Shown: positions 5,106 to 25,449 of the stretch, in pieces
Layout: every line of letters starts with the position of its first letter
Position numbering within the stretch: position 1 is the stretch's first letter
Source: Rhodospirillaceae bacterium
Lineage (GTDB): Bacteria; Pseudomonadota; Alphaproteobacteria; Bin65
NCBI GenBank assembly: GCA_026709535.1
Contig: JAPOST010000101.1
Span: 1-61,094 of the forward strand
Direction of reading: 5' to 3'
Length of the DNA: 61,094 nucleotides
Notes under the pieces: generated by a model
Database searches by the model: none
Seen by the model: the letters and a program-made list of their open reading frames with translations, nothing else
What the model was told of the DNA's origin: nothing
Translations under genes and position numbers: made by a program

Positions 5106-6664
5106 CGGGCCGCCGCCTCCGCCTTCCCTGCGCACTTTCCGTCGTACAGCCGGATCGTCGGCTCCCGATGGGCCAGAAGTCCGGCCGGGCGCCAGAGCAT
5201 GACCAGCACCATGGAACCGCCGAAGAACAGCATGCGATATTCCTGGAGTTCACGAAACATCTCCGGCAGGCCGATAAGGAGGAACGACGCCACGACGACG
5301 CCGATCTGACTGCCAAAGCCGCCGAGTACGACGATTGCAAGTATGACCGCCGATTCGATGAACGTAAAACTTTCCGGGCTGACGAAAGTCTGGCGGGTGG
5401 CGAAGAACGACCCGGCAAACCCGCCGAACATGGCGCCGATGCCGAAGGCTGTCAGTTTCGTGTTCGTCGGATTGATGCCGAGCGACCGGCAGGCAATTTC
5501 ATCTTCCCGCAGCGCTTCCCATGCCCGGCCAACTGGCAGCTTGCGGACGCGTACCGTGAAAAAATTGGTGGCCAGTGCCATGATCAGGATGACGAAATAA
5601 AGCAAGATCGTCGTATGTGACTGATCAAAGGGTATGTCGAGCGCCGTGTGAAATTCAGTCGTGTTCTCAAGTGTATTCTCATCCATCCTTGCTTCGGTCG
5701 AATAGCCGAGCAGTGAGGGGGGCGGAATCTTTGATATGCCGTCTGGGCCCTTGGTCAGACTGTAGAAGTTCAGCAGTGTCACCCGAATCATTTCGCCGAA
5801 GCCCAAGGTGACGATCGCCAGATAGTCTCCGCGAAGGCGGAGGACCGGGAAACCCAGCGCTACTCCCGCTAGCGCCGCCATCAACCCGGCAAATGGCATA
5901 CAGACCCAGAAGCTGATACCCTGCGTCCAGCCCAGTTCTTGCAACAGTGGCGAGTCCGGCGAAGCCAGCAGCGCGAAGGAATAGGCGCCGACTGCGTAGA
6001 AGGCGACATATCCGAGATCCAGCAGGCCAGCGAGGCCGACGACGATGTTCAGCCCCCAGCCGAGCATCACGTAGGTCAGAACCAAGACGCCGATATCAAG
6101 ATAACGCAGATTGACGCCAGGAAGGAACGGGAAGACCGCAGCAAACAGAAAGATGATCGCGCCGATCCAGACGGAGGAACGCTGCACTTGCGCACTGACC
6201 CAATCCATAAAGGAAGTATCTTCTGCAAAACTTGCCAATCCTTCTGCCGTCAACGGCGTTGTATTCCGCTTGCGGACACCGCGGATGGCGGAGCCAACGG
6301 CAAAGCCGGCCGATACGATCGCCAGAAGCCATTGCAGCAATCCGGCCTTGAAGGGCAGATATTTCTGTACGATTGCCCCGCCGAAGATCAACGATCCGAT
6401 CAGAATGGTTGCGGTGAGGGTCGCCGTTACGCTCACCCACCAATAGTGACCGTGGCGCACCAGGATCAGCCATCCGCGGCCGATGATGGCGATGATCACC
6501 GCTGACATGACGTCGATATAGCGCAATTCCAGCGACAGACCGCCTGACACATCCTTGATGTGAAAACCGACTAGCGAGATGGTCAGAGCGAAGACGACAA
6601 GCGCAGTGGCACCAAGCTCGATCAGGATACCCCTTCGCCTGACCAACGCCCTGTCAACAGCCAT
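5102..6664 (-). CDS. livM: Branched-chain amino-acid type ABC transporter permease LivM (long form)
   Basis: A 520-residue permease. The conserved half starts near residue 195 with LTYVMLGWGLNIVVGLAGLL, then FPVLRLRGDYLAIVTLGFGE and the cytoplasmic EAA-like loop GRAWEALREDEIACRSLGIN, which docks the ATPases. The N-terminal ~150 residues add about four extra hydrophobic spans, so the protein is longer than E. coli LivM. Long LivM forms are common in Alphaproteobacteria. ATG 6664 lies 4 bp after the livH stop. Confidence 0.9.
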   Translation of the reverse strand: MAVDRALVRRRGILIELGATALVVFALTISLVGFHIKDVSGGLSLELRYIDVMSAVIIAIIGRGWLILVRHGHYWWVSVTATLTATILIGSLIFGGAIVQKYLPFKAGLLQWLLAIVSAGFAVGSAIRGVRKRNTTPLTAEGLASFAEDTSFMDWVSAQVQRSSVWIGAIIFLFAAVFPFLPGVNLRYLDIGVLVLTYVMLGWGLNIVVGLAGLLDLGYVAFYAVGAYSFALLASPDSPLLQELGWTQGISFWVCMPFAGLMAALAGVALGFPVLRLRGDYLAIVTLGFGEMIRVTLLNFYSLTKGPDGISKIPPPSLLGYSTEARMDENTLENTTEFHTALDIPFDQSHTTILLYFVILIMALATNFFTVRVRKLPVGRAWEALREDEIACRSLGINPTNTKLTAFGIGAMFGGFAGSFFATRQTFVSPESFTFIESAVILAIVVLGGFGSQIGVVVASFLLIGLPEMFRELQEYRMLFFGGSMVLVMLWRPAGLLAHREPTIRLYDGKCAGKAEAAAR

Positions 6665-9522: not shown

Positions 9523-10716
9523 TCAACGTATTTCGCGAACCACAATCAGGGGGCCGTTCGGATGATCCGGATTCAACAGGATATTGTGGTTTATGTCATG
9601 AATCACGCGGGCCGCCCCGAACCACCCCATTCGATAGGTCTTTTCGTCAGGTGATTGAGTTTGGCAAATCTGAACTGCGCCGTTGGTCTGGTAACTTTCG
9701 GCAAGAGCTTCAGCCTCATTCCGATATTTTTCTGCGATATACGGTCCAACCGTATGATTCGTTCCGGATCTGTCATCATATCGGCATGCGCCGAATCCTG
9801 ATCGCATGATGTCGGAAAACGCCGGCAACAAACTGGCTTCAACATTGGCAACCAGTCCGCCAAAGCCGGGGCGCGCTCCATGACAAAGGCAGCGGGTCAT
9901 CAAGTCTTCGACGGTCGCATCCAGGTCGTCGGCATCCTCAAGATCGACCGTCCGGATATTCCTGAAGTGGGTATGCAGGGGAATGCCGTTTCGCTTCGGC
10001 GCAAGTGACACCATCGCTGCGGCGGCTCGGCTTCCATGGAAGTCCAGTCGCTTCAGGCCAGTTTGGCGTGTGAGGGCCATCCCGGCATCTGTCCCCGTTC
10101 CCTGGACGAGATTGAAGACGCCGCCCGCCGCGCCGGCCTGATCCAGCGCATCCGCAAAAAATACAGGTGACAGGGGGGCCTTGATCGACGGACGCACGAT
10201 GACCGTGTCGCCGGCAGCCATATCCTGACAGAGCGTTTCAACGCAAGTCTGTAGCGGATTACTCCACGACAGGATTTGCCCAATCACACCATTCACACAA
10301 GCGTTGGGGCCTGATTCGGTCGCCAACCGCAGCCGGGCGGCATTTATGGAAGCGAGCGTGTCATCACGTGCAAATGGTAGAGGTAGCCCAGTATCACGCG
10401 AAACGACTATCGCAACCTCATCAATCCGGTTCGCCAAATCTTCCAGTGCCGTGTCGACGATGTGAGCCCGATCCGCGCTGGAATACTCATTCCAGATCGG
10501 AAGTGCGCGCACCGCAGCTGCCTCCGCTTCGGCAATATCGCGATGCGTTGACAGGGGGACGGTGGCAATGACAGTGCTGTCGGCAGGATCGTAAATGTCG
10601 AAACCATAGCCTTCCCGGGTGAATTTCCATACCCCGCCGATATAGTTGCGTTCGCAGAGCTCACGCCATGAATGCGAATTGCCCGTGACCTCAGCTATCG
10701 TCAATGGTGACAGCAT
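9523..10716 (-). CDS. Aldehyde-dehydrogenase-superfamily protein lacking the catalytic Cys and Glu
   Basis: A 397-residue protein that follows the ALDH fold. It has an N-terminal NAD-domain stretch (YDPADSTVIATVPLS...), ILSWSNPLQTCVET in place of the PWNFP motif, AAGDTVIVRPS, GGVFNLVQGTGTDAGMAL and LDFHGSRAAAAMV. At the two key sites the family residues are absent. The ELGG motif carrying the general-base Glu is replaced by HTHFRN. The GQ.C motif carrying the nucleophile is replaced by GARPGFGG. The length is also ~80 short of a normal ALDH. It begins inside the last codons of the broken isoF (26-bp overlap), so it is the last gene of the iso operon. It may be a non-catalytic partner or a decaying gene. 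Without those residues it should not oxidise aldehydes by the usual mechanism. Confidence 0.65.
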   Translation of the reverse strand: MLSPLTIAEVTGNSHSWRELCERNYIGGVWKFTREGYGFDIYDPADSTVIATVPLSTHRDIAEAEAAAVRALPIWNEYSSADRAHIVDTALEDLANRIDEVAIVVSRDTGLPLPFARDDTLASINAARLRLATESGPNACVNGVIGQILSWSNPLQTCVETLCQDMAAGDTVIVRPSIKAPLSPVFFADALDQAGAAGGVFNLVQGTGTDAGMALTRQTGLKRLDFHGSRAAAAMVSLAPKRNGIPLHTHFRNIRTVDLEDADDLDATVEDLMTRCLCHGARPGFGGLVANVEASLLPAFSDIMRSGFGACRYDDRSGTNHTVGPYIAEKYRNEAEALAESYQTNGAVQICQTQSPDEKTYRMGWFGAARVIHDINHNILLNPDHPNGPLIVVREIR

Positions 10717-11081
10717 CTAAATCGAATCGGTCATGGCAGACTCGGTATCCAAGAATCAGATCGACGCACACAGCCCGAGAGATGACATCTTTCATCCTTG
10801 GGCCAGCGAGGTACATTTCTTTTCCGAAGAGACTCTGTTCCCTCGCCATCACAACATCGCCGACAAGACATTGAGCGAATGGCAGCCTCCGCTGCATTCC
10901 AGCCAGTCGCGCAGGGCGACATGGATGTTAATGGTGCCAGATGACTTGGCGATTTCGGTCAACTCATTGATGCAAAACAACTCCACCAGAGTATCGGCGC
11001 CAAAGTACAGATCGATTGGCCTGCTGCACAGGTGAACGATGTCTCGTCATGGAGCGTGACGCTGAATGTCCTGGGGAACCG
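10691..11081 (-). pseudogene. isoF: IsoF-type monooxygenase reductase, internally deleted and frameshifted
   Basis: This lies exactly where isoF follows isoE. The N-terminal strand of a [2Fe-2S] ferredoxin domain is readable (TFSVTLHDE, then TSFTCAAGQSI). At about 11012-11020 the sequence jumps to the C-terminal NAD-binding part (PIDLYFGADTLVELF, then GTINIHVALRDW). A further frame change near 10885 leads to the closing segment FGKEMYLAGP, then MKDVISRAV and CHDRFD. About 200 residues are missing, including the CxxxxCxxC iron-sulfur loop, the FAD-binding RxYS region and most of the NAD domain. No start codon is left in frame. A functional reductase cannot be made from this locus. Confidence 0.72.
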
Positions 11082-11108
11082 AACTGGTAGCTGCCTCGGA
11101 GATGCGGC

Positions 11109-12131
11109 TCAGGCATTGCCGCTTAAGCCGGCCTGCCACTTCAACTCGACCCATTTCGCGAGGACATCTTCGGCGATCGTCTGTGCCTCCAAGGCATCGA
11201 CATGCTCCGCAATCATCGCCGCGCCGGATTGAACGATTGTTTCTGCAAGGTCGTTCCACCCGCCGGCAAGGTTACGCAAGGTCTCGCGATGCGCGGGATC
11301 TTCATCAATGATGAAAGTGGTGGCGGAAACCGTCCACCGGTTATGGCGTTCGCAATCCACATAGAGATTCTCGAACACCAATGCATCGAGTTCATCTCCG
11401 GCGAGGCGCGCCGCACGGGATAGTTGATTGACGAAAAGGTTGTCACAAACCGGTCTAATCACGAGGTTGAAAGCGACAAGTGCCTCGTCCCACTTGTAGG
11501 CAATCATGAGCTTCTCGACTGCTTCTCGAACCCCTTGCCAACCTGGCGCATTTTCCCAGGTTTCCCGCTCACTGCTTCCAAATCCATGGGTCGGATGCTC
11601 AGTATCCAGCTGCCTGGTCCGGTATGCGACTCGCTGGACTCGTCGGAGCTGGTCGGCCACCTGGAAACCGGCGCAGTTGCCGATATAGGACGATGGTGCC
11701 AGCTGGTGAATGTAGGCTGACAGCATCTGCTGAACATGCGCCAAATACCGGCTGGGCGTCATCACGCTACGCAGCAGATTGAGACAGTTGTCTGAAAGCT
11801 GACTGTCGATGCTGTCCTCAGCCGTATAGGATGCGAGCAGGTTATCAACGTAGGCTTCCTGTTCGTCCTGCATCTTGACGTAACCATCGTAGGTCAGCCG
11901 GTCCGGATCGCGGAAGGCGTCCCAGTTGGAGATCTTGATCGAGATCTCGTCACGATACCGTTTAAGCCAAACGTTGCCGTGAACATTCGGCCCCATTTCC
12001 AGCGGTGTCTCGCCGGTCGTGTGGTTCATGTTGTGGGTCACGATTTCGTAGTCGTTCGGCTTGCCGGTCAATTCACCGAAAGCGCTCCACGTCTTTTTGC
12101 GAGTGCGCCGGCGCGCAGCTGTCTCTGTCAT
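11109..12131 (-). CDS. isoE: Isoprene monooxygenase, hydroxylase beta subunit
   Basis: A 340-residue protein of the non-catalytic beta subunit family of soluble diiron monooxygenases (TmoE/TouE/IsoE). It has the N-terminal KKTWSAFGELTGKPNDYEIVT, then GPNVHGNVWLKRYRDEISIKISNWDAFRDPDRLTYDGYV, the typical signature in front of the helical bundle. It packs with IsoA and IsoB to form the (alpha-beta-gamma)2 hydroxylase. The second of two adjacent ATGs (12131) is chosen because GGGAGG sits at proper spacing. It is followed immediately by the isoF wreck. Confidence 0.87.
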   Translation of the reverse strand: MTETAARRRTRKKTWSAFGELTGKPNDYEIVTHNMNHTTGETPLEMGPNVHGNVWLKRYRDEISIKISNWDAFRDPDRLTYDGYVKMQDEQEAYVDNLLASYTAEDSIDSQLSDNCLNLLRSVMTPSRYLAHVQQMLSAYIHQLAPSSYIGNCAGFQVADQLRRVQRVAYRTRQLDTEHPTHGFGSSERETWENAPGWQGVREAVEKLMIAYKWDEALVAFNLVIRPVCDNLFVNQLSRAARLAGDELDALVFENLYVDCERHNRWTVSATTFIIDEDPAHRETLRNLAGGWNDLAETIVQSGAAMIAEHVDALEAQTIAEDVLAKWVELKWQAGLSGNA

Positions 12132-12163
12132 CATTTCCTCCCGCATTGGCGTGTTGTTCGGGG

Positions 12164-12469
12164 TCAGGTGGCGTAGTACCAGCGCATCTGCTCTGTGGTG
12201 GACTGCATTCGGCCCTTGAAGGACGGCATCTCGGCTTCGATCATCGCAAGATCAAAGTTTCGACCGAGATGCTTCTCCATTGATGCCTTCGTCAGAATAC
12301 AATCGTGGTCAGTATGGATGCGGACGTAGTCGCCGCGTTCGATCACGAAGACTTCACGCTCCGGATTGTCATCGATAACCGCATCAATAACGGCCTCCGC
12401 CAAGGCACCTGTTCGGATCACCGGGCCTACCAGGTTTTCATCCATTTCAGTGTGGTCTTCGGAGTTCAT
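12164..12469 (-). CDS. isoD: Isoprene monooxygenase coupling/effector protein
   Basis: A 101-residue protein of the MmoB/DmpM/TmoD family. It reads NLVGPVIRTGALAEAVIDAV...NPEREVFVIERGDYVRIHTD, followed by LTKASMEKHLGRNFDLAMIEAEMPSFKG, which is the conserved core. It contains no cofactor; family members bind the hydroxylase and gate oxygen and substrate at the diiron site. ATG 12469 is preferred because homologues start a few residues before the VGPV motif and an AAGGAAC lies upstream. Longer in-frame starts would overlap isoC. Confidence 0.87.
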   Translation of the reverse strand: MNSEDHTEMDENLVGPVIRTGALAEAVIDAVIDDNPEREVFVIERGDYVRIHTDHDCILTKASMEKHLGRNFDLAMIEAEMPSFKGRMQSTTEQMRWYYAT

Positions 12470-12491
12470 GGTCCCTTGTTCCTTCATCGCT

Positions 12492-12848
12492 CTATTCCGG
12501 CTCGGTCCCGACATAGACACGGCCATTTTCGACCTTCACCGGAAAAGCCTGCAGGCACTCGTTCGCAGGATTGACGCCCTTGCCGTTGTCGGCCCGAAAC
12601 TGCCATTGATGGGCGCCGCAGATAATCAGGCCGTCTTCTGTCAATTCTCCATCTACGAGGGCGACACTCTGATGCGGACACAGGCCGTCATAGGCGAAGT
12701 ACTGTTGTCCAAAATGAACGAGCAGGATCTCATGGTCGCCGACGTCGAAGGCATCCATCTCACCGTCCCACAATTCATCTTCGGCACAGACTTCGACATA
12801 GTCGATATCCTTGGTCTTCTCCGTGGAGACGGCGGCTACTCCTTCCAT
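12492..12848 (-). CDS. isoC: Isoprene monooxygenase Rieske-type ferredoxin
   Basis: A 118-residue Rieske [2Fe-2S] protein. Ligands are visible as CPH (C57, H59) and CGAH (C77, H80), that is C-x-H-x17-C-x2-H, followed by QWQF. It carries electrons from the NADH reductase (IsoF) to the IsoA diiron centre. ATG 12848 starts 13 bp inside the end of isoB, so translation is coupled. Since isoF is broken here, this ferredoxin would need another reductase. Confidence 0.88.
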   Translation of the reverse strand: MEGVAAVSTEKTKDIDYVEVCAEDELWDGEMDAFDVGDHEILLVHFGQQYFAYDGLCPHQSVALVDGELTEDGLIICGAHQWQFRADNGKGVNPANECLQAFPVKVENGRVYVGTEPE

Positions 12849-13102
12849 CGGACTTCGAACCATTGGAGCGGCAGCACAGGCGTCTCCGCCATCAACTCCT
12901 CGAGGCGCTGATCGCCAGGCAAGATATCCCCGTTCAAAAGCACTTCATATCCGTCTGCCGCCGGATTCTCGGGCATCCGGCGGCCAACACTGTGCACAGC
13001 CACCTTTTCAGCGATCTGATCGAAAGTGTCTTCGGTGTCGACGGCCGCCAGATGGGGTACAAAGTCACCGGCAAAGCGGCCTATGATCGGAAAGAGAGCC
13101 AT
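12836..13102 (-). CDS. isoB: Isoprene monooxygenase, hydroxylase gamma subunit
   Basis: An 88-residue protein of the TmoB/IsoB ubiquitin-like gamma family, beginning MALFPIIGRFAGDFVPHL and continuing DTFDQIAEKVAVHSVGRR...LNGDILPGD. The initial strand-helix-strand and the length are typical. It is a structural part of the hydroxylase. It lies 49 bp after isoA. Confidence 0.85.
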   Translation of the reverse strand: MALFPIIGRFAGDFVPHLAAVDTEDTFDQIAEKVAVHSVGRRMPENPAADGYEVLLNGDILPGDQRLEELMAETPVLPLQWFEVRWKE

Positions 13103-13151
13103 AACCCTTGCTCCTCACTGGGTGTTCGCGATTGTCTTGCCGGTGCCGCTA

Positions 13152-14642
13152 TCATGCCGCCACTCGCATGTCCTTGTAGTCTTGAGCCCAAGCGTACCCG
13201 TAAGCGTCGTCGCCCATGACTTCAGGCGTGATGCTCATCCACTGCAATCCGCCTTCAAGATTCATGGGCTGGATCTGACCGGCGATGAAACGATCCACGA
13301 CGTTCATGTGTCCGGCATAGCGCTCTGGCTCCAGTTCGAAAATCCATTTCGAAACTTCACTGTCGAAGTGATAGACGCGGCCTTCATGAACAACCTGGTG
13401 GCATCCCAGATGGTGGCGGTCCAGAGCAGATCCGAGTGGCAGTTGAGTAATGTTGCAAAGTGCCGGCAGCGTCTCGGGATATGTTTTCTCCATCTTGCCG
13501 TCGTTGACGTTCTTGATGATTTCGTCCCAGAGAACACCCCAACTGTCATCCCAGCTCGGGTACTTTTCGTTCAGCCAGCGACGCTCTGCCTTCGACACGC
13601 CGGCGTTAGGTTTCCAGAACAAAGTCGGGCGCCAGAACCAGGTACCTATGTGCATGGCATGATGCCCATGCTCCAGCGCTTCCTCGAATTGCGACCAATA
13701 CCAAGGCTTCTTCAAGCCATAATCGCGAAGGATTCGCTCGTGGTGCTTGATGATCCACTCAAGCATGAACTCCTTGAATGACATTTTCCGTTTTTCGACC
13801 GGCGTGTAATAGTCCATCGATGTGCCGGTGAGTGTCTGGAACAGGCGGAAGGCTCGCCAAAAGGAAACGTCCAGAATCTGCTGTGCTCGCTTGGGGTCGT
13901 GCTTCATCACGACATCCAGGGTCGGAAAGCCGAGTTGCGCGTGGCGGGCTTCGTCCGTCTGGATGCTGGAAAGAAGACTGGAGAAATTGACATCGCCGGC
14001 TTCCATGGCGTCCGACGCCATCGCGACAAACTGAATGTTGGTGAAACCATGCTCTACGGTGAGCGAGGTTGCCAGTGCTGCCTCGACGCAATCGGCGTTC
14101 AGCATCACGTCGTCGAAGAAATTACGAACCGCCAAGACGCCCCATTCGTTGGTATGGAAAGCCTTCTGGCACCAATCGAAGCGAGGGTCCTCGTTCAGGA
14201 GATCGTGGCTGAAGCGCATATCGAGCTGCGCGTGCCGTATCTCATCAAGCATGCCGAACGCACCCAGGCTGCGCCAGCGGGCACAAGGCGCGAAGCGGGA
14301 GAAACGGGACTGCATCGTCACTGCCATCTGCTCGACCATGCAGGTCGTACCCATGTGAAGCTGTGTTGACGCCTTATGTCCGTCATCAAGTTGCTGATAG
14401 GCTTTCGCACGAACCATTGCTTCGCGAATGGCACTCACGCCGGCTTCCTTCTCACGCTGCACCATCACGTATTCTCGGTAGGAAACGCGGAACGGTTCGT
14501 CCCAGTCCTCCCAAGCTTCGAGCGGGATGCCTTTCGCACCGACCCATTCCTCCGGGAAGGCCTCATCGCGGTCGACGTATTTCAGCGTCCAGTCGACGTC
14601 GCGAGCTATGTCGTACCAATCGTCACGATTCAGTAAAGCCAT
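13152..14642 (-). CDS. isoA: Isoprene monooxygenase, hydroxylase alpha (catalytic) subunit
   Basis: A 496-residue soluble diiron monooxygenase alpha subunit. All six carboxylate/His iron ligands fall at the same numbers as in toluene-4-monooxygenase: E104, E134 and H137 (DEIRH), E197 and E231 and H234 (DEARH). The N-terminus MALLNRDDWYDIARDVDWTL and motifs such as KKPWYW and HAMHIGTWFWRPTLFW resemble isoprene/alkene monooxygenases more than aromatic ones. In isoprene degraders IsoA converts isoprene to 1,2-epoxy-2-methyl-3-butene using O2 and reducing equivalents. AAAGGA lies upstream of the ATG. The substrate is assigned by neighbours (GST, SDR, CoA-transferase); another small alkene is possible. 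Confidence 0.88.
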   Translation of the reverse strand: MALLNRDDWYDIARDVDWTLKYVDRDEAFPEEWVGAKGIPLEAWEDWDEPFRVSYREYVMVQREKEAGVSAIREAMVRAKAYQQLDDGHKASTQLHMGTTCMVEQMAVTMQSRFSRFAPCARWRSLGAFGMLDEIRHAQLDMRFSHDLLNEDPRFDWCQKAFHTNEWGVLAVRNFFDDVMLNADCVEAALATSLTVEHGFTNIQFVAMASDAMEAGDVNFSSLLSSIQTDEARHAQLGFPTLDVVMKHDPKRAQQILDVSFWRAFRLFQTLTGTSMDYYTPVEKRKMSFKEFMLEWIIKHHERILRDYGLKKPWYWSQFEEALEHGHHAMHIGTWFWRPTLFWKPNAGVSKAERRWLNEKYPSWDDSWGVLWDEIIKNVNDGKMEKTYPETLPALCNITQLPLGSALDRHHLGCHQVVHEGRVYHFDSEVSKWIFELEPERYAGHMNVVDRFIAGQIQPMNLEGGLQWMSITPEVMGDDAYGYAWAQDYKDMRVAA

Positions 14643-14737
14643 GATTTTATCCTTTCCTACGGGCGGAGCGGAAGGCGTGACCTCCCGGGTAAATATCTGG
14701 CGGAGCGCGTCTGCCGTACACCGCCTGAGTGAGTGAT

Positions 14738-15451
14738 CTAGATATCGAAGCGCTGTTTGACCCGATCCAGATAGCTGGCCAAGTTCGCTTTTCCTGCCGC
14801 ATAGTCCTTCGTATCGAAGTTGAACGGCGTATCGATGATGTGGCGCAGGATCGATGAAACGGCGGCATCAATGGACCGAGGCTCTTCACCCATCACAAAG
14901 CCATTCCCGCCGATTCGGGCATCAAGGGCATCAATGTCCTCCCGCGCTCTCTGGTAAATCACGTCGCCAGACATGCGACCCCATCCGCCATGCATGAATT
15001 CAGTCACGATGCGATGCCGGAAATCATCGGCGAATGTCTGGAGCGGCGGCGGCACATCGTCGGTGCCGGCAATGATGCGAAGGTAAATTTCCCAGTTGGG
15101 AGTCTCACGCCAACGCGGCTGAATGACGGCAGTCCAGTACAGGTGCTCGTCGATCAGCCGATTCCAGGCATGCATCTCCGCTTTTTCCTGGTCGGAGGCG
15201 TTAGAATCCAGCGGATCCCCATATTTTCCTTTGAGATACTTGATAATGGCGGTCGAGTCGGCAACGGTTTCATCGCCGTCATCGATCTTCGGCAGTTTGC
15301 CGAAAGGCGTCTCTTCGTCGAGCTTGGTCAGATCCTGGCCAACGATCTCATGCTCGATCCCCACCATTTTCATGTAGTTGATCACCTTGGTGACGTAGGG
15401 GGAAATGCACGGTACCGTCCAGGCTGGCAGGTATCGGTAAATCTTGATCAT
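14738..15451 (-). CDS. isoI: Glutathione transferase, IsoI-type
   Basis: A 237-residue GST. The N-terminal thioredoxin-like domain begins MIKIYRYLPAWTVPCISPYVTK and has FGKLPKIDDGDETVADSTAI (the cis-Pro and glutathione-contacting Glu/Asp-Ser region). The C-terminal helical domain contains WNRLIDEHLYWTAVIQPRW. This metaxin-like GST class includes IsoI, which conjugates glutathione to isoprene epoxide to give 1-hydroxy-2-glutathionyl-2-methyl-3-butene. It sits between isoH and isoA as in known iso clusters. A second GST (isoJ), usually adjacent, is absent here. Confidence 0.82.
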   Translation of the reverse strand: MIKIYRYLPAWTVPCISPYVTKVINYMKMVGIEHEIVGQDLTKLDEETPFGKLPKIDDGDETVADSTAIIKYLKGKYGDPLDSNASDQEKAEMHAWNRLIDEHLYWTAVIQPRWRETPNWEIYLRIIAGTDDVPPPLQTFADDFRHRIVTEFMHGGWGRMSGDVIYQRAREDIDALDARIGGNGFVMGEEPRSIDAAVSSILRHIIDTPFNFDTKDYAAGKANLASYLDRVKQRFDI

Positions 15452-15511
15452 GGTCGCTCCTCCGTTCTTGTCGTTGTGCTTGGCGAGTCATCGAATAACT
15501 GCTTCACGCGA

Positions 15512-16192
15512 TCACCACGCCAACTCCTCCCCGTTTGCGTGCCAGAACCGGCCGGACGTTTCGAGACTGAGTACATCCATGCGCTGGAGTAGCCCTTCGG
15601 CCGCTTCATCTGGCGTGATGTAATCGAAGTCTCCCGGGAAATCTTTCGTCAGATCTGTTGCAACCATACCTGGATGCAGGGCGGCAACGGCGATGCCACG
15701 CTTCGAAAGGTCGTGGTGGAGATTGAGAGTCACCATGTTCGCGCCTGCTTTCGAAACGCGATAGGCGTACATCTGGCCGGATCCGTTATCGGACAGAGAG
15801 CCGACTCGGCTCGTGATCACCCCGATCTTTGCATTTGGTGCCAAATGCGGCATGGCAGCTTCGACGGCGCGCAGGGGCCCGATTGTATTGATCTCGAACT
15901 GTCGACGGACATCACCGTAGTCGATCTTGCCCAACTCATCAAGGCCGAGGACGCCAGCGACATGAATGAGGACATCCATGGTTTCGCCCCTGGCGGCCAG
16001 TGCAGCAGCCATTCCGGCAATCGCACGATCAGAGGTCACATCAATATTCGGGACCACTTCGATCACTGTTCCTGAATAAGCATCGCCTGCACCCATACAG
16101 ACCGAGACGACTTTATCTCCCCGATCGGACAACTGACGGCAGATAGAGTAGCCGATACCGCGGTCCGCGCCGATGATCAGATAGGTTGCCAT
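15512..16192 (-). CDS. isoH: Short-chain dehydrogenase, IsoH-type
   Basis: A 226-residue SDR. The nucleotide-binding GADRGIG is at residues 8-14, the structural HVAG motif near 77-80, the catalytic Ser in VITSRVGS (about 128), and Tyr144/Lys148 in YRVSK. IsoH oxidises the glutathione conjugate of isoprene epoxide to the aldehyde and acid. Its start faces the divergent LysR gene, leaving a 182-bp shared promoter region. It is 60 bp upstream of isoI. Confidence 0.82.
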   Translation of the reverse strand: MATYLIIGADRGIGYSICRQLSDRGDKVVSVCMGAGDAYSGTVIEVVPNIDVTSDRAIAGMAAALAARGETMDVLIHVAGVLGLDELGKIDYGDVRRQFEINTIGPLRAVEAAMPHLAPNAKIGVITSRVGSLSDNGSGQMYAYRVSKAGANMVTLNLHHDLSKRGIAVAALHPGMVATDLTKDFPGDFDYITPDEAAEGLLQRMDVLSLETSGRFWHANGEELAW

Positions 16193-16353
16193 TCAGTTCG
16201 TTCTCAATTTGCCCCGATCTAGCAGGAAGCCTTGGATGATCACACGACACGATCCTGGTCGGATGGTTCAGGACAAGGCAGCGTCTTTGCACCCCGAATT
16301 CGACTTAGCCTATGCAGCTCGGGCAAGGGGGGCTATAGCAACTTCCCAAATGA

Positions 16354-16376
16354 ATTGTTCCGTAGGGTCGAACAAT
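16354..16376. promoter_or_regulatory. Inverted repeat overlapping the LysR start (candidate autoregulatory operator)
   Basis: ATTGTTC and GAACAAT form perfect 7-bp arms separated by 9 bp. The right arm overlaps the ATG of the LysR gene. This is the size and symmetry expected of a LysR-type operator, and the position would allow autorepression and control of the divergent isoH promoter. The half-site CGAACAAT recurs upstream of isoG (20493-20500) and at 22374-22381. Confidence 0.5.
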
Positions 16377-17283
16377 GGACTTGAGGCATCTCTATCGCAT
16401 CAGCGTCTTCCAGAAGGTCGCGGAAACCGGCAATTTCACGCGCGCCGCCCAGGCGCTCAACCTGAGCAAATCCGTTGTCAGCCAACATGTTAGCGACCTT
16501 GAACGCGATCTCAATGTCCGCCTGCTCAATCGATCGACCCGATCGGTCTCGATCACCCAGGAAGGACATTCACTCGCCGACGCTGCGGAACAGATGATCG
16601 ACATCATCGGCACGGCCATCGAGCGATTGGAAAACGAGCAGCATCTTCCATCAGGGATGATCAGGATAACGGCGTCGCAGAATCTTGCGATCGTCTATCT
16701 GGCTGGTGCCATTGCACGTTTTCGAGAGGCGCACCCGACTGTCGAGGTCGAGCTCGACACGCAAGACAGCATCACGAATCTGATCGAAAGCGGATATGAC
16801 ATCGCCTTTCGTATCGGCTGGCTGAAAATAACCGAGCTTCATGCCGTCAAGATTGCCGACTTCGAGATGGTCCCGTGCGCCTCTCCGGCGTTCGTGAGAA
16901 AGTTCGGACCGTTCGACTCACCCATGGACCTGTCACGAAAACCCTGGATTGTCCTGACCATCATGTCGGATTATGACCGGTTGACGCTCAGCAGGAACGA
17001 TCAGGACAACATGAGCGTCAAACTTTATCCGTCGATCCGAACAAACTCCGGGATGACGGCGAAGCAATTCGTTCTTAACGGAGCCGGCGCCGCACTTCTT
17101 CCGGATTACGCGGTGTCTGCAGAGATCGAAGAAGGTAACCTTGTTCGGCTCCTGCCGGGTTGGCATCATCGACCAGGCGAAATAGCGGCAACATTCGTCC
17201 ATCGACGCCGCATGCCGCTGCGTCTTCGCGCCTTTATTGATTTCCTCAAGGAAGATGCAAGGACCACGTTCAACAAGCACTGA
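16375..17283 (+). CDS. LysR-family transcriptional regulator within the iso cluster
   Basis: A 302-residue LTTR. The N-terminal winged HTH is FQKVAETGNFTRAAQALNLSKSVVSQHVSDLE (residues ~12-43), followed by LNRSTRSVSITQEG. Residues ~90-295 form the effector-binding domain (IRITASQNLAIVYLAGAIARF, DIAFRIG). It is divergent from isoH and convergent with the ALDH gene, which places it inside the iso cluster. Control of the cluster by an epoxide or glutathione-conjugate signal is an inference; the sequence shows only position and the palindromes. Confidence 0.88.
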   Translation: MDLRHLYRISVFQKVAETGNFTRAAQALNLSKSVVSQHVSDLERDLNVRLLNRSTRSVSITQEGHSLADAAEQMIDIIGTAIERLENEQHLPSGMIRITASQNLAIVYLAGAIARFREAHPTVEVELDTQDSITNLIESGYDIAFRIGWLKITELHAVKIADFEMVPCASPAFVRKFGPFDSPMDLSRKPWIVLTIMSDYDRLTLSRNDQDNMSVKLYPSIRTNSGMTAKQFVLNGAGAALLPDYAVSAEIEEGNLVRLLPGWHHRPGEIAATFVHRRRMPLRLRAFIDFLKEDARTTFNKH

Positions 17284-17292
17284 ACGCGCTGG

Positions 17293-18744
17293 TCAGTCTT
17301 TCTTGATATTCACCACGACGGTGTTCGTATATTCCGACAAGCCTTGAACGCCGCATTCGACGCCAAGACCGGACTGGCGGATGCCGCCATAAGGAATCTC
17401 CGGCCCCATCGACGGATGCTGATTGACGAAGACGTTTCCAGCCTGGAGTCTGACGGCGACCGCTGTTGCAGCGTCTATATTTCGCCCCCATACGGAGCCG
17501 GCCAGGCCGTAAAGTGTATCATTCGCCCGGGTGATGGCGTCCTGGAGATCGTGGTACTTCAAGAAAGCGAGAGCAGGCCCGAATTGCTCTTCCCGAACGA
17601 TCCGTGCCTCATCCGGCACATCCCTGAAGAGGGTAACCGGATGGTAGAAGCCAGGGCTTTGCGGCACATCACCCTTGAAAAATGCATTTGCGCCACGACT
17701 GATCGCATCTTCGACCAGTTCGGTGACGATGTCCAACTGCTGACGATTCTGGAGAGGTCCCAGTTCGACATCCGGTTCGTTCCACGGCCCCATCTTCACA
17801 TTGGCCGCTATCGCGGCCAGTCGGCTGCACAGTGCTTCGTAAAGTTCGGACGGAACGTATGCTCGCTTCATACAGGCGCATACTTGCCCGTTGTTTGCGA
17901 AACCTGCCCAAAACAGTTCTTCCGCCTGCGTATTGATGTCGAAATCGGGCATGATGATCGCAGCATCGTTGCCTCCCAGCTCAAGCGTCAGACGCTTCAA
18001 GGTTGGCGCCGCGTTCGCCATGATCGCCTTTCCGGTATCCACGGATCCCGTAAAGGCAATTTTGCCGATCCGATCATGCGCCGTCATCCAGCGCCCGAGG
18101 TCATCGCCTCCCGTCAACACATTGATGACCCCGGCCGGAAAGATGTTCTTGGCGATTTTCCCCAGCCGAAGGGCGGTGAGGGGCGTCGAAGGGGCAGGTT
18201 TGAGTATGAGGGTATTGCCCGTCAACAAGGCTGGGCCGATCTTCCACAAGGCGAGCAACGCAGGGTAGTTCCACGCAGTAATCGCACCGACTACGCCGAT
18301 CGGGCGCTTCTCGACCCGGACATACTGATTGTCGGTATCACGGAGCACCTCGGATTTCAGTTCCAGGTTCGCGAATCCGCGGACAAAGAAAAGTCCGCCA
18401 TTTGTTTCGCCGATGCCCTTGGCAAGCGGTTTGCCAGCTTCCTGAGCAACTAGGGCACCAATGTCGTCTGCTTCGGCAGCGACAGCATCGCAGAACTTGA
18501 GAACGAGCGCACGACGGTCGGACCACGGCATCGCGGCCCAGGCAGGGAATGCAGCTTCAGCCGCAGCGACAGCATCATCCAGGTCTTGTTGGCTCGCCTC
18601 TGGTGCCGAAGCAAAAGCTTGACCGGTTGCAGGGTCGAGAACATCGAAGCTGTTATTGATCTGCCTGAGCTTGCCACCGATCACCATGGCCAACCCGTCG
18701 TGCGCTCTCTGGCCGTTTTCCGGCACCGTTGTCTGGATATTCAT
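17293..18744 (-). CDS. NAD(P)-dependent aldehyde dehydrogenase of the iso cluster
   Basis: A complete 483-residue ALDH. It has AWNYP (substrate/NAD domain junction), KPAPSTPLTA, FTGSVDTGKA, ELGGNDAAI with the general-base Glu, and NNGQVCACMKR with the catalytic Cys. An ALDH (aldH1) is a regular companion of iso genes, where it is thought to oxidise the glutathionylated butenal. ATG 18744 is chosen because AAGGGAG precedes it at good distance; a longer upstream start lacks family similarity. It is transcribed toward LysR, with 9 bp between the convergent stops. Confidence 0.9.
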   Translation of the reverse strand: MNIQTTVPENGQRAHDGLAMVIGGKLRQINNSFDVLDPATGQAFASAPEASQQDLDDAVAAAEAAFPAWAAMPWSDRRALVLKFCDAVAAEADDIGALVAQEAGKPLAKGIGETNGGLFFVRGFANLELKSEVLRDTDNQYVRVEKRPIGVVGAITAWNYPALLALWKIGPALLTGNTLILKPAPSTPLTALRLGKIAKNIFPAGVINVLTGGDDLGRWMTAHDRIGKIAFTGSVDTGKAIMANAAPTLKRLTLELGGNDAAIIMPDFDINTQAEELFWAGFANNGQVCACMKRAYVPSELYEALCSRLAAIAANVKMGPWNEPDVELGPLQNRQQLDIVTELVEDAISRGANAFFKGDVPQSPGFYHPVTLFRDVPDEARIVREEQFGPALAFLKYHDLQDAITRANDTLYGLAGSVWGRNIDAATAVAVRLQAGNVFVNQHPSMGPEIPYGGIRQSGLGVECGVQGLSEYTNTVVVNIKKD

Positions 18745-19168
18745 GTTACTCCCTTCTTGCGCCGGTTGAGCCACGAGATCAGGCCAAACAACGCTTTTTG
18801 GCATTACCTACAGCGCATAATCCTTATCCGACGTCTTTACCTTTGTTTTCGCCGACAGCAGGTTTTACCTTTGCCCTCTGCGTCCCGAGGTGCAAGGCCC
18901 CTATCTGCAATACACCAGCTGGCCTAGCGCGGCAGATGATCACCGGAATTTCCCGGACGGCGATATCGTCAGACATTCTTGATCGTGCTGCTCGCAACTG
19001 GAAACATCGACCCAACGAATGAAGGAGGGCCGTCTCCACTCATCAAGAGCGATCAGCAGCTTCCGACCGTTGAGCGATCGATAGTGATCAATCACGCCGA
19101 TTCGCCGGCCAAACCCGGACCGGGAACCACAACCGGGCAAACCTTGTCCGATGAATGCCGTCGACATG
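18745..19168. other. Intergenic region between isoG and the ALDH gene
   Basis: 424 bp without a recognisable gene. Short frames exist on both strands but show no family features. It may hold a separate promoter for the ALDH gene. No copy of the CGAACAAT half-site was found. Confidence 0.35.
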
Positions 19169-20398
19169 TTACTCGGCGGCCACCGAAACGGCGTTCAAGG
19201 TGATGTCCTGCTCGCCGCCAATGACACCCTGTGCATGCAGTTCCCGAATACGGTCTTCCGCAAGGCCGACTTCCAGTAGGATGTCGGCGCAGTGCTCGCC
19301 AAGCTGCGGCGCGCCCGACCGGTTTGTCGCGGGCGATCCCTCGAACCGCGCGGCATTGCGCGTTTGTCGTATGCGGCCGGCAGTGGGATGATCGCTTTCG
19401 AAAAGTATCTCGCTCGCGACAACCTGGGGGTGATCGGCTACGTCCCGGCGTGACAGAGCCGGGGAACAGGGAACGCCGCATTTCTCCAAGATGTCCATCC
19501 ACTCGTCAGTCGTTCGCTCACGCAACACCTCCTGGGTCATTTCCAGGCGCTCGTTGACATGAGCATCGCGGGCCGCCGGACTCGCAAAGCGCTCGTCTTC
19601 CAGCCACTCCTTGCGATCCAGTGCTTCGCAAAGGCCACGCCATTCCCTGTCTGACATCACGGCGACGGTCATGAAACCGTCCTTTGTTCGGTAAATCAGA
19701 TCAATGAAACTGGCAGCAGCCTGATTGGAAACCTCTGCCTGAGGGTAGGTCTGTGCGCCAAAGTCGGAAGCCCAGAGGAAAGAGAGGATCGCATCCAGCA
19801 TGGACAGCCGGACGTGCTGCCCCTCGCCCGTGCGTTCGCGCCGGAACAACGCCGCTCCCATAGCTTGCGCTGCCGCCATCGCCGAAAACTTGTCGGGCAG
19901 GACAGTGCGCACCAGGCGTGGACGTTCTTCGTCCGAGCCGGCCTGGATTGTCGTGAGACCGGAAATTGCCTGGATGACAGGATCATAGACCGGTTTGTGG
20001 ACCCAAGGCCCCTTTTCACCAAAGCCCGAAAGCGACAAATAGACAATATCCGGTTTGACTGTTTTGACGTCCTCGAAGCCGACTCCAAGCCGCTCCACCA
20101 CGCCGGGACGAAAGTTCTGGATGAAAACATCAGCCGTTTTTGCGATCTCCAGAAGCAAATCACGGCCTTCCGGCTTCTTGAGATCAATGGTGATGGAGCG
20201 CTTGTTTCGATTGATGTTGAGAAACATCGACGACATGCCGCCGCGGCGATTGCCGAGCGAGCGAACGTGATCGCCTTTTCCGGGCACTTCCACCTTGATG
20301 ACATCCGCGCCCTGATCACCAAGTATTGTCGTCGCCCATGGTCCCGAAAGCATCGTGGTTATGTCGACGACCCGAACGCCTTCAAAGGGTCCACTCAT
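19169..20398 (-). CDS. isoG: Class III (CaiB/BaiF) CoA-transferase, IsoG-type
   Basis: A 409-residue class III CoA-transferase. It has MSGPFEGVRVVDITTMLSGPW at the N-terminus, ADVIKVE, the nucleotide-binding NRNKRSITIDLK, FIQNFRPG, and SMLDAILSFLW, a segment that usually contains the catalytic Asp. IsoG is expected to load or move CoA on the glutathionyl-methylbutenoate so that it can enter beta-oxidation; this has been proposed in isoprene degraders. ATG 20398 is preferred over the preceding TTG because GGAG lies 8 bp upstream. First gene of the iso set in transcription order. Confidence 0.85.
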   Translation of the reverse strand: MSGPFEGVRVVDITTMLSGPWATTILGDQGADVIKVEVPGKGDHVRSLGNRRGGMSSMFLNINRNKRSITIDLKKPEGRDLLLEIAKTADVFIQNFRPGVVERLGVGFEDVKTVKPDIVYLSLSGFGEKGPWVHKPVYDPVIQAISGLTTIQAGSDEERPRLVRTVLPDKFSAMAAAQAMGAALFRRERTGEGQHVRLSMLDAILSFLWASDFGAQTYPQAEVSNQAAASFIDLIYRTKDGFMTVAVMSDREWRGLCEALDRKEWLEDERFASPAARDAHVNERLEMTQEVLRERTTDEWMDILEKCGVPCSPALSRRDVADHPQVVASEILFESDHPTAGRIRQTRNAARFEGSPATNRSGAPQLGEHCADILLEVGLAEDRIRELHAQGVIGGEQDITLNAVSVAAE

Positions 20399-20700
20399 CA
20401 AGATAACTCCCGCCGAAATTCAATTGGATGAAGTTAGGCCGTTTTGCGGCGCCAGGATACGGTGGTTTCCCGAACCGATTGTGCGCCCATTTCGAACAAT
20501 CGACATATTCGAACTCCAGCGACGGACTCCGAAGGCGCAAACTCCCATTCAGTTCGTCTGCTTGGGAACCGCCTTTGCACACGGCGACAACAGCTTTGGC
20601 AGCCACAACGCAAACAACATGTCCTACAATATTGGCTGGCGCCGTATCGCCACCTTCGAGAAAAGCTCAACCGAGATGCCGCCAAACCACGCGCAGCATC
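20399..20700. promoter_or_regulatory. isoG upstream region
   Basis: 302 bp between the outer-membrane gene stop and isoG. No gene is supported. It contains the TTCGAA palindrome and probably the isoG promoter. Confidence 0.4.
20491..20513. promoter_or_regulatory. TTCGAA-N11-TTCGAA palindrome upstream of isoG
   Basis: Two TTCGAA hexamers are separated by 11 bp, about 93 bp before the isoG start codon. TTCGAA is self-complementary, so the pair forms a symmetric site of LysR size. The left copy is embedded in CGAACAAT, the half-site also seen at the LysR gene. A role as activator site is inferred. Confidence 0.45.
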
Positions 20701-21960: not shown

Positions 21961-22666
21961 CAGAGAACCCGTCTCGGTCCGATTGGTGCGAGTTCGCCCA
22001 TGATGAGCGAATTCGAACCATGCAATCCCACCCGAACATGTCTCTGCTTCAGTCCGTCTGGTGATTGGCAGTTTCCATCTTGCCGATACGCCGTGAGCGA
22101 TCCAGAAACAGCTTCTGACCGTTGACCGCCGAGGTCTTCAGGCAGACGTTCCCTGGGCCGCAACAGGCGAGTTTCCCGGCGCGCACGTTCATTTTGCTGC
22201 GCCAGCTGCGTTGTTGGTGACGAGCCAAACGAATGCTGCGCCGTCGAGGCGATGTTGCCGAGACCCTGATCTCGGTTGCAGACCTTGCAAGGCGAAACCG
22301 ACTTCCGCCGCACTGACAGGTGTGCATACGAAAGCGTCAGGCTGTAGGCGCCGGGCGCGAATGACATTTTCGTCGAACAATCGTGGCGCAAGCAAAACAT
22401 CGGTTCATCCTGCCAATTCGACCATGCAAGGATATGCAGTTGGGTATTCATATTCCATTTGGCGGCCAACACAACCGTCCATGGTATACAGCCATCGGCA
22501 TTGATCCAGCAGGTATATGGCGCGCTTCCGCTCGCTTGTCTTTTACGACATCCAAGACTGCTGATGCGCCGCGCCCTATCATGAGAAGCTGGTCTGTTGC
22601 TTGATTTGGTGTAGAGTCCGAGGGTAGCGGGATAGTGTCGGACTGACTCATTACGGAGAGTGCCTC
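21961..22666. other. Intergenic region without recognised gene
   Basis: About 706 bp between the outer-membrane protein and the nuclease-like gene. Both strands contain short frames with no family signatures. It includes one CGAACAAT half-site (22374-22381) about 410 bp upstream of the outer-membrane gene start. Confidence 0.4.
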
Positions 22667-23743
22667 ATGAGCGTACTGGCTGAAGTCGTTCGGAACGGGT
22701 CGATGCAGAGCGAGCCGGCTGCAACTCAAGCGCTCGCCTATATCCTGAATTCGTCTCCCGATATCGCCCGCGTCTTCGTCCGCTTGTTACGTCCGGCAAG
22801 AGGCGACTTCGAGCCCGGGCGTATTGAAGCCGAACTTGGTCATGAAGACAGCCAACCGGACTTGACGGTCCATGACAGCCATGGACGGGTGCGGGCCTTT
22901 GTCGAGAACAAGTTCTGGGCCGGGCTGACTGACGCACAACCTGTATCCTATCTCGCGAAGCTTCGCGGTGATCCCCCGGGCTGCCTCCTGTTCATCGTTC
23001 CCCGGCGCAGAGTGGACACGGTCTGGAATGAACTCGGGCTGCGATGCAGTGAGGCTGACCTCGAATGGGAAGCCGACCCGGGCGAGACCAGCGTCCGTTG
23101 CTCCCGCGTCGACGGCAAGATCATGCTGATCACGAGTTGGGCTCATGTCCTCGAAGGGTTGCTGGACGCTGCCCGCGCCGGGGAGCACGACGCCATCCGA
23201 CACGACATCCTCCAGCTTCAGGGGCTGACGAGCCGGATGGATGCGGAAGCTTTTCTGCCCCTCCGCGGCGACGAAATCACCGATCAGGAAACAGCACGCC
23301 GCCTGATCAACTACAACGAACTGATCGAAGACATCACGTCAAAGCTCAAAGACAGCGGTGTCGCCAACACCCAGAGGTCGGTAGCCTCCAACGGGCGGCA
23401 CACTACTAAGCGGTTGGTAACCTCCCACGGGCAGCACACTAGCGGCCGTTACCTTATTCTCCACGAGAAATTCGAATTGTGGCTCGGGATCGATCTCCTA
23501 GTTTGGCGCGACTTCGGGATCACGCCTTTGTGGGCGCAATTCGCCAATAACGATTCTTCGGGCGTCGCCGGTCACCACCAAACCATCCTCGGGCTCTTCG
23601 ACGATGCACAAGTTTCTGAAAATTATTTATGCATTCCCATTCGCCTCAGGACCGGCGTTGAACGGGATCGGGTCATCGACGATGCAGCTGCACAGATGAC
23701 CCGACTCGCCGACACGCTGCGGGACCAGATCCCGGACAGTTGA
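22667..23743 (+). CDS. PD-(D/E)XK nuclease-superfamily protein
   Basis: A 358-residue protein. Residues ~54-90 carry the nuclease core: E54/E56, then QPDLTVHDS and, after a turn, AFVENKFW, so the PD...(E)xK triad is present. The pattern is shared with orphan PD-(D/E)XK proteins that accompany restriction or defence genes. A 12-residue tandem duplication lies at ~237-260 (RSVASNGRHTTK / RLVTSHGQHTSG). The C-terminal third (FELWLGIDLLVWRDFGITPLW) looks like a separate domain. No methylase, helicase or TA partner is adjacent. Nuclease activity is predicted from motif only. Confidence 0.65.
   Translation: MSVLAEVVRNGSMQSEPAATQALAYILNSSPDIARVFVRLLRPARGDFEPGRIEAELGHEDSQPDLTVHDSHGRVRAFVENKFWAGLTDAQPVSYLAKLRGDPPGCLLFIVPRRRVDTVWNELGLRCSEADLEWEADPGETSVRCSRVDGKIMLITSWAHVLEGLLDAARAGEHDAIRHDILQLQGLTSRMDAEAFLPLRGDEITDQETARRLINYNELIEDITSKLKDSGVANTQRSVASNGRHTTKRLVTSHGQHTSGRYLILHEKFELWLGIDLLVWRDFGITPLWAQFANNDSSGVAGHHQTILGLFDDAQVSENYLCIPIRLRTGVERDRVIDDAAAQMTRLADTLRDQIPDS
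23376..23447 (+). repeat. 36-bp imperfect tandem duplication inside the nuclease-like gene
   Basis: Two direct 36-bp units lie head to tail (23376-23411 and 23412-23447). They share most positions, including CGGGC.GCACACTA. The length is a multiple of three, so the reading frame is preserved and 12 residues are doubled. Such units are typical products of replication slippage. Confidence 0.75.
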
Positions 23744-24300: not shown

Positions 24301-25449
24301 TTACTCATCCGAAACGGCACCTCGGCCCTGGCCGTCGATTTCCACCTCTGCATTGATGCCGATCGTTGGGTCCGAAACCTTGATCGGGGCCCGTTCGCGG
24401 GGGTTTTCGCTGTCCTCGTCGAGGTCCAGTTCCCGGATCTTGTCGCCGCGCTTGATGATCTTGCGGGTCGACGTCTGGATACGTTCGATATCGCCGTTAG
24501 CCCGGGTGAAGTGGGTAGTCAGATTGCCGACCCGGTCCTCAAGCCGGCCAACATCCGCCATCATCGTCTCGACTTCTTTCTGTATCACGTGAGCCTGCTC
24601 ACGCATCCGCACATCGCGAAACACAGCGCGGACAGTGTTCAGCGTCGCCCAAAGTGTCGTCGGACTGACAATGTAGACCTTCTCACGGAAACTCTGCTCC
24701 ACCACGTTCGCGTGACGGGCATGAAGGTCTGCATAGACCGCCTCCGATGGCAGAAACATCAAGGCCGCATCCCCCGTCTCGCCAGGGATGATATATTTCT
24801 CGCGGATATCCTTGACGTGTTTCAGGATATCGTTGCTGAAGTTCCGAGTGGCCCTGAGGCGCTCCTGGTCCGTCTCCGCATTCTGTAACTGCTGCCAGCC
24901 TTCCAATGGAAACTTGGCGTCGATCGCGATCGGACCAGGCGGGTTCGGCAGGGTGAGCAGACAGTCGACTCGTTTGCGATTGGACAGTTGCGCCTGAAAC
25001 TTGAAGGCGCCGGGCGGCATGATGCTTTCCACAAGATCGCGCAACTGGATCTCGCCAAACGCGCCGCGGGCCTGCTTGTTGGACAGGATGTCCTGCAGAC
25101 TCACCATCTGGTTCGAGAGGTCAATGATGTTCTTTTGCGCTTCATCCATCACGGCGAGGCGCTCACCAATATGCTGCAGCGAGGCCTTGGTTTTCTCCGA
25201 ACTGGCATCCAGGCTGGCGCCAACCCGCTGACCTACCGCATCCAGCCGCTGGTTCATCGCCCGCTCCTGGTCCAGCAGGCGGGCGTTGAAGGTTTGCTGG
25301 GTGTTTTCCTGTGTCGCAGCCAGATGGCTCAAACGGGCGTTGATTTCCGTCTGGCCTCTCAGGGTTCGAAAAGTGAAGAGGAGCGCCAGCAGGCCGAGGA
25401 AGGCTGCCAGTCCCAGAAAGATCAGCGTATTGGGGCCCATGCTTTCCAT
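24301..25449 (-). CDS. rmuC: DNA recombination protein RmuC
   Basis: A 382-residue protein: an N-terminal membrane span (LIFLGLAAFLGLLALLFTF), a long coiled coil (~30-120), and the RmuC nuclease-like domain. That domain includes ARGAFGEIQLRDLVE, the AIDAKFPLEGW box with the PD-(D/E)XK-like DAK, LMFLPSEAVYADLH and VSPTTLWATLNTVRAVFRD. RmuC limits inversions and rearrangements. It is divergent from def, as commonly seen in Alphaproteobacteria. Confidence 0.9.
   Translation of the reverse strand: MESMGPNTLIFLGLAAFLGLLALLFTFRTLRGQTEINARLSHLAATQENTQQTFNARLLDQERAMNQRLDAVGQRVGASLDASSEKTKASLQHIGERLAVMDEAQKNIIDLSNQMVSLQDILSNKQARGAFGEIQLRDLVESIMPPGAFKFQAQLSNRKRVDCLLTLPNPPGPIAIDAKFPLEGWQQLQNAETDQERLRATRNFSNDILKHVKDIREKYIIPGETGDAALMFLPSEAVYADLHARHANVVEQSFREKVYIVSPTTLWATLNTVRAVFRDVRMREQAHVIQKEVETMMADVGRLEDRVGNLTTHFTRANGDIERIQTSTRKIIKRGDKIRELDLDEDSENPRERAPIKVSDPTIGINAEVEIDGQGRGAVSDE

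Follow-up and report, generated by a model that had tools for sequence, protein, structure and literature searches.

A lone nuclease gene in the window

What does a PD-(D/E)XK nuclease do when it stands by itself? The question is raised by one gene (22667..23743, + strand) in the window, i.e., the whole stretch of 61,094 nucleotides that was analysed. No restriction, methylase or known toxin–antitoxin gene is seen next to it, an orphan status which the sequence-only reading of this DNA had remarked upon and which our searches bear out. The open reading frame starts with ATG, specifies 358 amino acids followed by a stop codon and has no internal stops; a probable ribosome-binding site, GGAGAG (22655..22660, + strand), was recognised by eye 6 bases 5′ of the ATG. 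The G+C content is 0.595 for the gene and 0.582 for the window, and the gene is a single copy in its genome (G000; 3.67 Mb assembled into 203 contigs, with a completeness of 96%). As judged from its sequence, the enzyme is apparently intact.

The gene is intergenic. Upstream lie genes for a DUF1302-like protein (below the Pfam cut-off) and a CoA-transferase (Pfam search); downstream is rmuC (Pfam search), followed by def, fmt and truA, which were named by eye. No methylase, as a type II restriction–modification system requires, was found among the nearest neighbours with Pfam or among the farther genes by eye, no cognate methylase, GTPase or specificity subunit was seen beside the gene, and a by-eye reading of the neighbouring open reading frames (ORFs) gave no convincing adjoining antitoxin gene. 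The RmuC neighbour (window 24301-25449; Pfam RmuC, E 1.3e-62) also matches the PADLOC model RTasRmuC at 1.3e-14, likely a cross-hit of a housekeeping gene. Farther upstream, we take the run at 9523-20401 to be a diiron monooxygenase-like cluster (by eye), with the alpha subunit at about 13152-14642 and a second subunit at 11109-12146. The same run presumably encodes a glutathione transferase, an SDR, aldehyde dehydrogenases and a family III CoA-transferase, and to us is reminiscent of isoprene/alkene degradation loci; Pfam confirmed in it the CoA-transferase only.

Recovery of the family

The window protein has no match at E up to 1 in the Pfam, NCBIfam, PHROGs and PADLOC 2.0.0 models. Exact peptide words retrieved no match to it from genome contigs or viral contigs, tblastn found none in plasmids and annotated phages, and a PDB sequence search returned one match with the window protein (E 1.2) and one molecule with the family profile (E 0.82). 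Homologues were gathered from genome contigs with a degenerate DNA pattern for the motif KFWA(G/A)LTxxQP, which reads KFWAGLTDAQP in the window protein (22910..22942, + strand). At least 117 loci were recovered; as they were selected on the motif, its conservation is given by construction and the counts are lower bounds. Among the matches listed, 119 motif genes were extracted, namely the window's and 118 others, in 117 loci. The full alignment has 80 rows: the window protein and the 79 of the 118 homologues that measure 300-480 amino acids and have no open end, with long N-termini trimmed. A smaller alignment, A1, holds 56 members, 55 of them from the 118 homologues.

The 79 full-length homologues align end to end with the window protein at 21-57% identity, and a profile built from them, with the window protein left out, scores it at 347 bits over residues 1-356. 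Closest to it among the matches listed are L122 and L092, both from alphaproteobacterial bins. We found no paper on the family in the open-licence literature searched on restriction, anti-phage and sponge-symbiont topics, and we know of no activity or functional test for any of its members.

Nuclease core and C-terminal domain

A PD-(D/E)XK core followed by a separate C-terminal domain had been proposed from the sequence; the former is now backed by the profile, the conserved residues and the predicted fold, and the latter by the AlphaFold model. The Asp of the PD motif (D65; 22859..22861, + strand) and both E80 and K82 of the (D/E)XK motif (E80-N81-K82; 22904..22912, + strand) occur in 80 of 80 full-length members. 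The conserved acidic residue of the first core helix, E16 (22712..22714, + strand), occurs in 79, with one gap. The catalytic residues are, thus, not lost in the family. Q91, P112, R115, W158 and P287 are likewise found in all 80 rows, Q183 and W289 in 79 each and P64 in 75. Two of these residues, K82 and Q91, lie within the motif used for the search, so that their conservation reflects selection; E16, D65 and E80 lie outside it.

The AlphaFold model, obtained with 56 sequences, has a pLDDT of 91.5 and a pTM of 0.78. The PD-(D/E)XK core comes first, then helices (175-229 in the main), then an alpha/beta domain. The predicted core elements (helix 15-29, strands 50-55, 66-70 and 75-81, helix 93-98, strand 106-111) fit the alpha-beta-beta-beta-alpha-beta core of the superfamily. 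We delimited the nuclease domain to about residues 7-180 (22685..23206, + strand) and the C-terminal alpha/beta domain to about residues 205-358 (23279..23740, + strand), using the model and structural comparison with VIA-align. For residues 7-176, the best solved structure was Nt.BspD6I (Z 8.1; rmsd 3.6, 131 aligned residues), with EcoT38I (6.4), MspJI (6.0), McrBC (5.7), BstEII (5.6), and NgoMIV and HindIII (both 5.0) further down. Since best Z scores of 7-8 are typical without a clear match, a caution line lies at about Z 8, which is where the Nt.BspD6I score falls; what identifies the domain as a nuclease is the set of conserved residues together with the run of nucleases in the list. With Foldseek, no match in the PDB or among viral models had an E below 0.001, YaeQ proteins heading its rows at about 0.01. 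Taken together, membership in the PD-(D/E)XK nuclease superfamily is firm.

The C-terminal domain (residues 205-358) aligned best with 1yb3 (Z 7.1), the C-terminal DNA-binding domain of T4 MotA (6.2 and 6.0) and type III secretion chaperones (5.5-5.7), all below the caution line. This domain would most likely bind DNA or mediate assembly. We infer that DNA is the substrate of the enzyme, and that DNA binding or target choice falls to the C-terminal domain.

A private 12-codon duplication

The in-frame 12-residue duplication noted from the sequence is real. It is an imperfect tandem in which 29 of 36 bases are identical: the first copy, TQRSVASNGRHT (23369..23404, + strand), covers codons 235-246 and the second, TKRLVTSHGQHT (23405..23440, + strand), codons 247-258. 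None of 1000 codon-shuffled versions of the gene reached 29/36, the best tandem match being 25/36; general repeat finders did not list the 36-bp duplication at the thresholds used. Amongst the 80 full-length members, the corresponding segment measures 16 residues in 65, 12 to 26 in 14 others and 28 in the window protein. The 28 residues, equal to 16 + 12, are the longest form of the segment, and the 12-residue addition is private to the window protein among those compared. By eye, the second copy is closer to the relatives (e.g., SKKGLKPTHGYT in L087), and the first copy is therefore likely to be the added one.

The duplication had been taken for part of an evolving linker between two domains. 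As that reading implies, family members differ in the length of the segment, but here it is predicted to be structured: AlphaFold models the duplication mostly as beta strands at the entry of the C-terminal domain, with a block mean pLDDT of 90-94. We therefore do not place the duplication in an unstructured linker but in the first part of the structured C-terminal domain.

Distribution and mobility

The loci (at least 117) come from 16 named phyla: 24 from Pseudomonadota, 21 from Chloroflexota, 16 from Acidobacteriota and the others from 13 further named phyla, except for six without phylum. One archaeal member, in Methanoregula, is among the loci listed. Close to home the gene is rare. None of 60 relatives, including six congeners, carries it in a single-protein search at E 0.001, and a profile search at 1e-8 of 398 sampled genomes of the phylum, which we take from the relatives to be Pseudomonadota, found it in the window's own and in none of the 397 others; the two samples overlap. 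Four weak matches in these 397 genomes (E 2.6e-4 to 0.007) were judged to be chance, as they lie in or opposite unrelated genes and the profile, at 1e-8, picked up none of them.

Both rmuC and the DUF1302-like gene are present in each of the six congeners, but never as neighbours: they lie on different contigs in five and about 236 kb apart on one contig in G003. Since the genes flanking the window nuclease are not neighbours there, no clean empty site can be read from the congeners. In two of them, def and fmt stand beside rmuC (by eye).

The phylogenetic tree of the family mixes phyla. It groups the window protein with L122, L092, L022, L024 and L068 in a clade (support 100/98) whose six rows are all associated with Pseudomonadota. 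One to four family matches per genome were found in 34 of 34 host genomes, several of them fragments or sequences carrying stops. At L009, L099 and L020, the gene stands in tandem with a second copy, or a copy fragment, of the same family, some of them in one frame or with stops. The homologues occupy many different settings and are not consistently in housekeeping contexts, even if the copy in the window does have housekeeping genes as its neighbours. From these patterns, the family appears to spread horizontally and to be often gained and lost.

At least 28 of the 117 loci come from bins with sponge-project names, 12 of them jk18x bins and 16 with the initials RHO, COS, IRC, CAR or APA. We take a further 26 loci to be from sponge bins as well. 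According to the part of PMC9531527 that was available, jk18x bins are from Ircinia sponges, and the five sets of initials match sponge species in the available part of PMC8163846, from which we infer that those bins are sponge-symbiont bins. In the same parts of both papers, defence genes are reported as enriched in sponge symbionts. The link to sponge symbionts is a lead only.

Recurrent partner genes

Clustering of the ORFs within three positions of the nuclease gave one recurrent partner, in 15 loci, which a hidden Markov model raised to 19 of the 117 loci listed. This partner, helper one, is a PHEY...YWTMG protein of about 110 residues, with A20, T22, P28, H29, Y31, F58, W74 and N87 invariant in 18 aligned sequences. 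It is encoded downstream on the same strand in 10 loci, overlapping the nuclease gene or within 10 nt of it (in L113 as a fragment), upstream on the same strand in five and convergently in four. The other 98 loci listed show no adjacent helper one. Flanks are often partial: at least 600 bp are available upstream of 99 of the 118 genes, downstream of 85 and on both sides of 66.

In six of 18 cases, helper one forms a single protein with a class I SAM methyltransferase (Pfam Methyltransf_12/25); the Pfam families matched by these fused enzymes are of the kind that modifies small molecules, RNA or proteins and not of the DNA methylase kind. For the helper domain itself no Pfam family was found, and its PHROG rows are methyltransferases or unnamed. 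Its model (pLDDT 92) has no structural match above Z 4.1, which is not evidence of a new fold.

Eleven of 30 host genomes carry a helper one gene, beside the nuclease in six, loci which had been picked knowing of the pair. The five helpers located elsewhere have no nuclease directly beside them (by eye); one of them was missed by the ORF script, and a thermonuclease-like ORF lies about 2.3 kb off the helper in L187. At E 1e-8, neither G000 nor the genome of L122 has a helper one gene. It is present in four of the five tree rows nearest the window protein (L092, L036, L068 and L024), three of these being SAM-fused and convergent. Mapped on the tree, with rows with short flanks scored as lacking it, helper one requires 14 changes, at least nine of which are forced by starred branches, versus a shuffled mean of 16.5; 34 of 500 shuffles were as low. 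Helper one is, thus, scattered and weakly clustered, and we read the scatter as probable repeated gain or loss, to which missing flanks would add. A single viral contig, L182, has the exact nuclease motif. Helper one ends there 9 nt before the nuclease gene, and we take the pair (4638-6014) to lie between genes resembling those for phage tail sheath and tail tube (by eye).

A second partner has the signature WN...LQE...GDxN...SDH, for which we assume the family name EEP (DNase I-like). It adjoins the nuclease in seven of the 117 loci listed: downstream in L070, L104 and L077, next to a nuclease copy that is broken in L014 and in L035, on the opposite strand in L057, and fused to the PD-(D/E)XK protein in L106 (1640-3685), where one continuous frame of 682 amino acids encodes both. 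At E up to 1e-15, 13 of 24 host genomes have EEP relatives, mostly one each, and seven of the 24 had been chosen for the adjacency; with about one relative per genome, adjacency by chance in seven of 117 loci is unlikely. G000 has one EEP relative, interrupted by a stop, on contig 201 (L198, 75-850). Overall, 26 of the 117 loci listed show one of the two helpers and 91 show neither, with flanks that are often partial.

In a further viral contig (L197:1089-2295), an EEP gene precedes helper one by 16 nt and no family PD-(D/E)XK gene was detected in the stretch examined, which suggests that the same parts recombine. The family might even lie at the heart of a new immune toolkit, modular and transferred horizontally, in which the nuclease would act alone, with the PHEY/YWTMG domain (plain or SAM-fused) or with the EEP enzyme; we would put this at clearly short of even odds. 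If it is true, the window protein would be the lone-nuclease version, with its private 12-residue addition at the putative DNA-contacting domain. The partner modules are the more interesting finding on the family, and the window copy has none beside it. The recurring helpers give one-gene and two-gene constructs that are testable against phage.

Defence genes in the neighbourhood

From 189 ORFs adjoining homologues, 138 were retained as the neighbour set after helper and nuclease pieces and ORFs of less than 110 amino acids had been dropped. The control set consisted of 103 ORFs from 17 genomes. The ORFs were picked by a simple script, and some of them are spurious. PADLOC matched 155 families on the neighbour ORFs and 66 on the control ORFs, these being counts of families and not of proteins. 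The best 25 of the 155 neighbour rows include Avs2, R and M proteins of types I and II, IetA and SoFic, and the control rows listed are largely helicase-type models. Pfam identified mostly ordinary enzymes amongst the 138 neighbour ORFs (best 25 of 99 rows). We have rejected a claim of defence-island enrichment: the comparison gives no rate, and the controls match too.

Function of the window nuclease

With a rough probability of 0.55, we read the window gene as a PD-(D/E)XK endonuclease of a mobile unnamed family that cuts invading DNA and acts without helpers. An anti-invader role is plausible; that the gene by itself makes up a defence system, as the sequence-only reading had put forward, is possible. 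Its catalytic domain, N-terminal and presumably metal-dependent, carries E16, D65, E80 and K82; helices connect it to the C-terminal domain, and it would cut the DNA of phages or other mobile elements in a restriction-like manner. In its logic, the enzyme would be nearest to type IV or other solitary nucleases, since a lone copy that has no methylase at its side needs its own means of leaving the host chromosome uncut. The accessory genes that a minority of the relatives have may modulate the nuclease or add to its action; the copy in the window presumably works without them. The reading is supported by the best-aligned folds, which are those of restriction-type nucleases, by the conservation of the catalytic residues in 80 rows and 16 named phyla, and by the PDDEXK_4 matches among A1 members. 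In its favour are also the sporadic distribution with intermixed phyla and decayed copies, the two helpers next to the nuclease, the pair on a viral contig and the neighbours of homologues that match defence models. Counting against it are the one viral contig with the exact motif, the lack of any defence-model match for the window protein, its housekeeping neighbours, the ordinary enzymes that prevail among the Pfam rows listed for neighbours, the PDC-S26 match confined to two A1 members and the best Z score at the caution line. Of the first reading as a whole, the lone nuclease core and the separate C-terminal domain stand, whereas the evolving linker is half right.

The best placed of the alternatives, doubtful yet worth weighing, would cast the nuclease as the effector in a system of two components (self-marking or toxin–antitoxin-like), with the PHEY/YWTMG protein or its SAM fusion as the partner and the window copy as an orphan that has lost it. 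The 10 loci with helper one close downstream on the same strand suggest such a unit, as do its pairing with the nuclease in a viral contig and its spread over the tree (at least nine forced changes of 14). As four of the five rows nearest the window have helper one, the lone state may mean its loss. Nevertheless, adjacent helper one is missing from 98 of 117 loci listed (partial flanks), the helper label is hardly more clustered than when shuffled (14 changes versus 16.5; 34/500), and the fused methyltransferases are not of the DNA methylase type. G000 and the genome of the closest relative, L122, have no helper one gene at E 1e-8, yet the nuclease is intact.

Less probable still is a selfish, homing-like mobile endonuclease, cutting target sites that lack it. 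Scattered gene positions, intermixed phyla and decayed and tandem copies would suit such an element, as would the viral-contig copy lying between two phage-type genes. It is improbable in view of the helper gene in 26 of the 117 loci listed, the restricted number of matches per host genome (1 to 4, in 34/34), and the viral record, where the window protein has no annotated-phage match and one viral contig has the motif.

An action on RNA or another substrate by a protein with the nuclease fold is brought to mind by the EEP protein (DNase I-like or phosphatase) attached in some relatives; we hold it to be very improbable, as it is with solved structures of DNA endonucleases that the catalytic domain aligns best. 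A role in chromosomal repair or housekeeping, to which the position beside rmuC, def, fmt and truA might point, is hardly credible, being already contradicted by the distribution: the gene was not found in the six congeners, all of which keep rmuC, or in the 397 other sampled genomes of the phylum.

Relation to known systems

The endonuclease that we propose belongs to a family found in 16 named phyla, yet the window member has no match in four protein-family libraries and is missed by ordinary similarity searches. At the level of sequence, the unnamed family appears to be distantly related to Pfam PF14281 (PDDEXK_4), with which it shares the arrangement of the PD...ExK core. PDDEXK_4 is matched by 23 of the 56 members of A1 at E up to 0.1 (best 7.9e-7), and a profile made from two members of the class to which the window belongs aligns with its core over 55 columns (E 0.0018, but a probability of only 15%). 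The window protein, however, is below the cut-off of PDDEXK_4 and does not match it even at E up to 1; nor does G000 contain a match at 1e-8. The family has, moreover, features of its own: the KFWA(G/A)LT..QP signature (by selection), the conserved P112, R115, W158 and P287, and its C-terminal domain.

The predicted fold of the nuclease domain resembles those of restriction-type nucleases (Nt.BspD6I, EcoT38I, MspJI and McrBC; Z 8.1 to 5.7), whereas the window protein has no meaningful sequence match in the PDB. The PADLOC candidate PDC-S26, which is not mentioned in the open-licence literature searched, weakly matches two of the 56 A1 members (best 7e-5) but not the window protein, and the match may reflect just the shared nuclease core. 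In the part of PMC11514479 that was available, lone, scattered "phage defence candidate" (PDC) genes are termed candidates; the window-type nuclease is, likewise, a single scattered gene.
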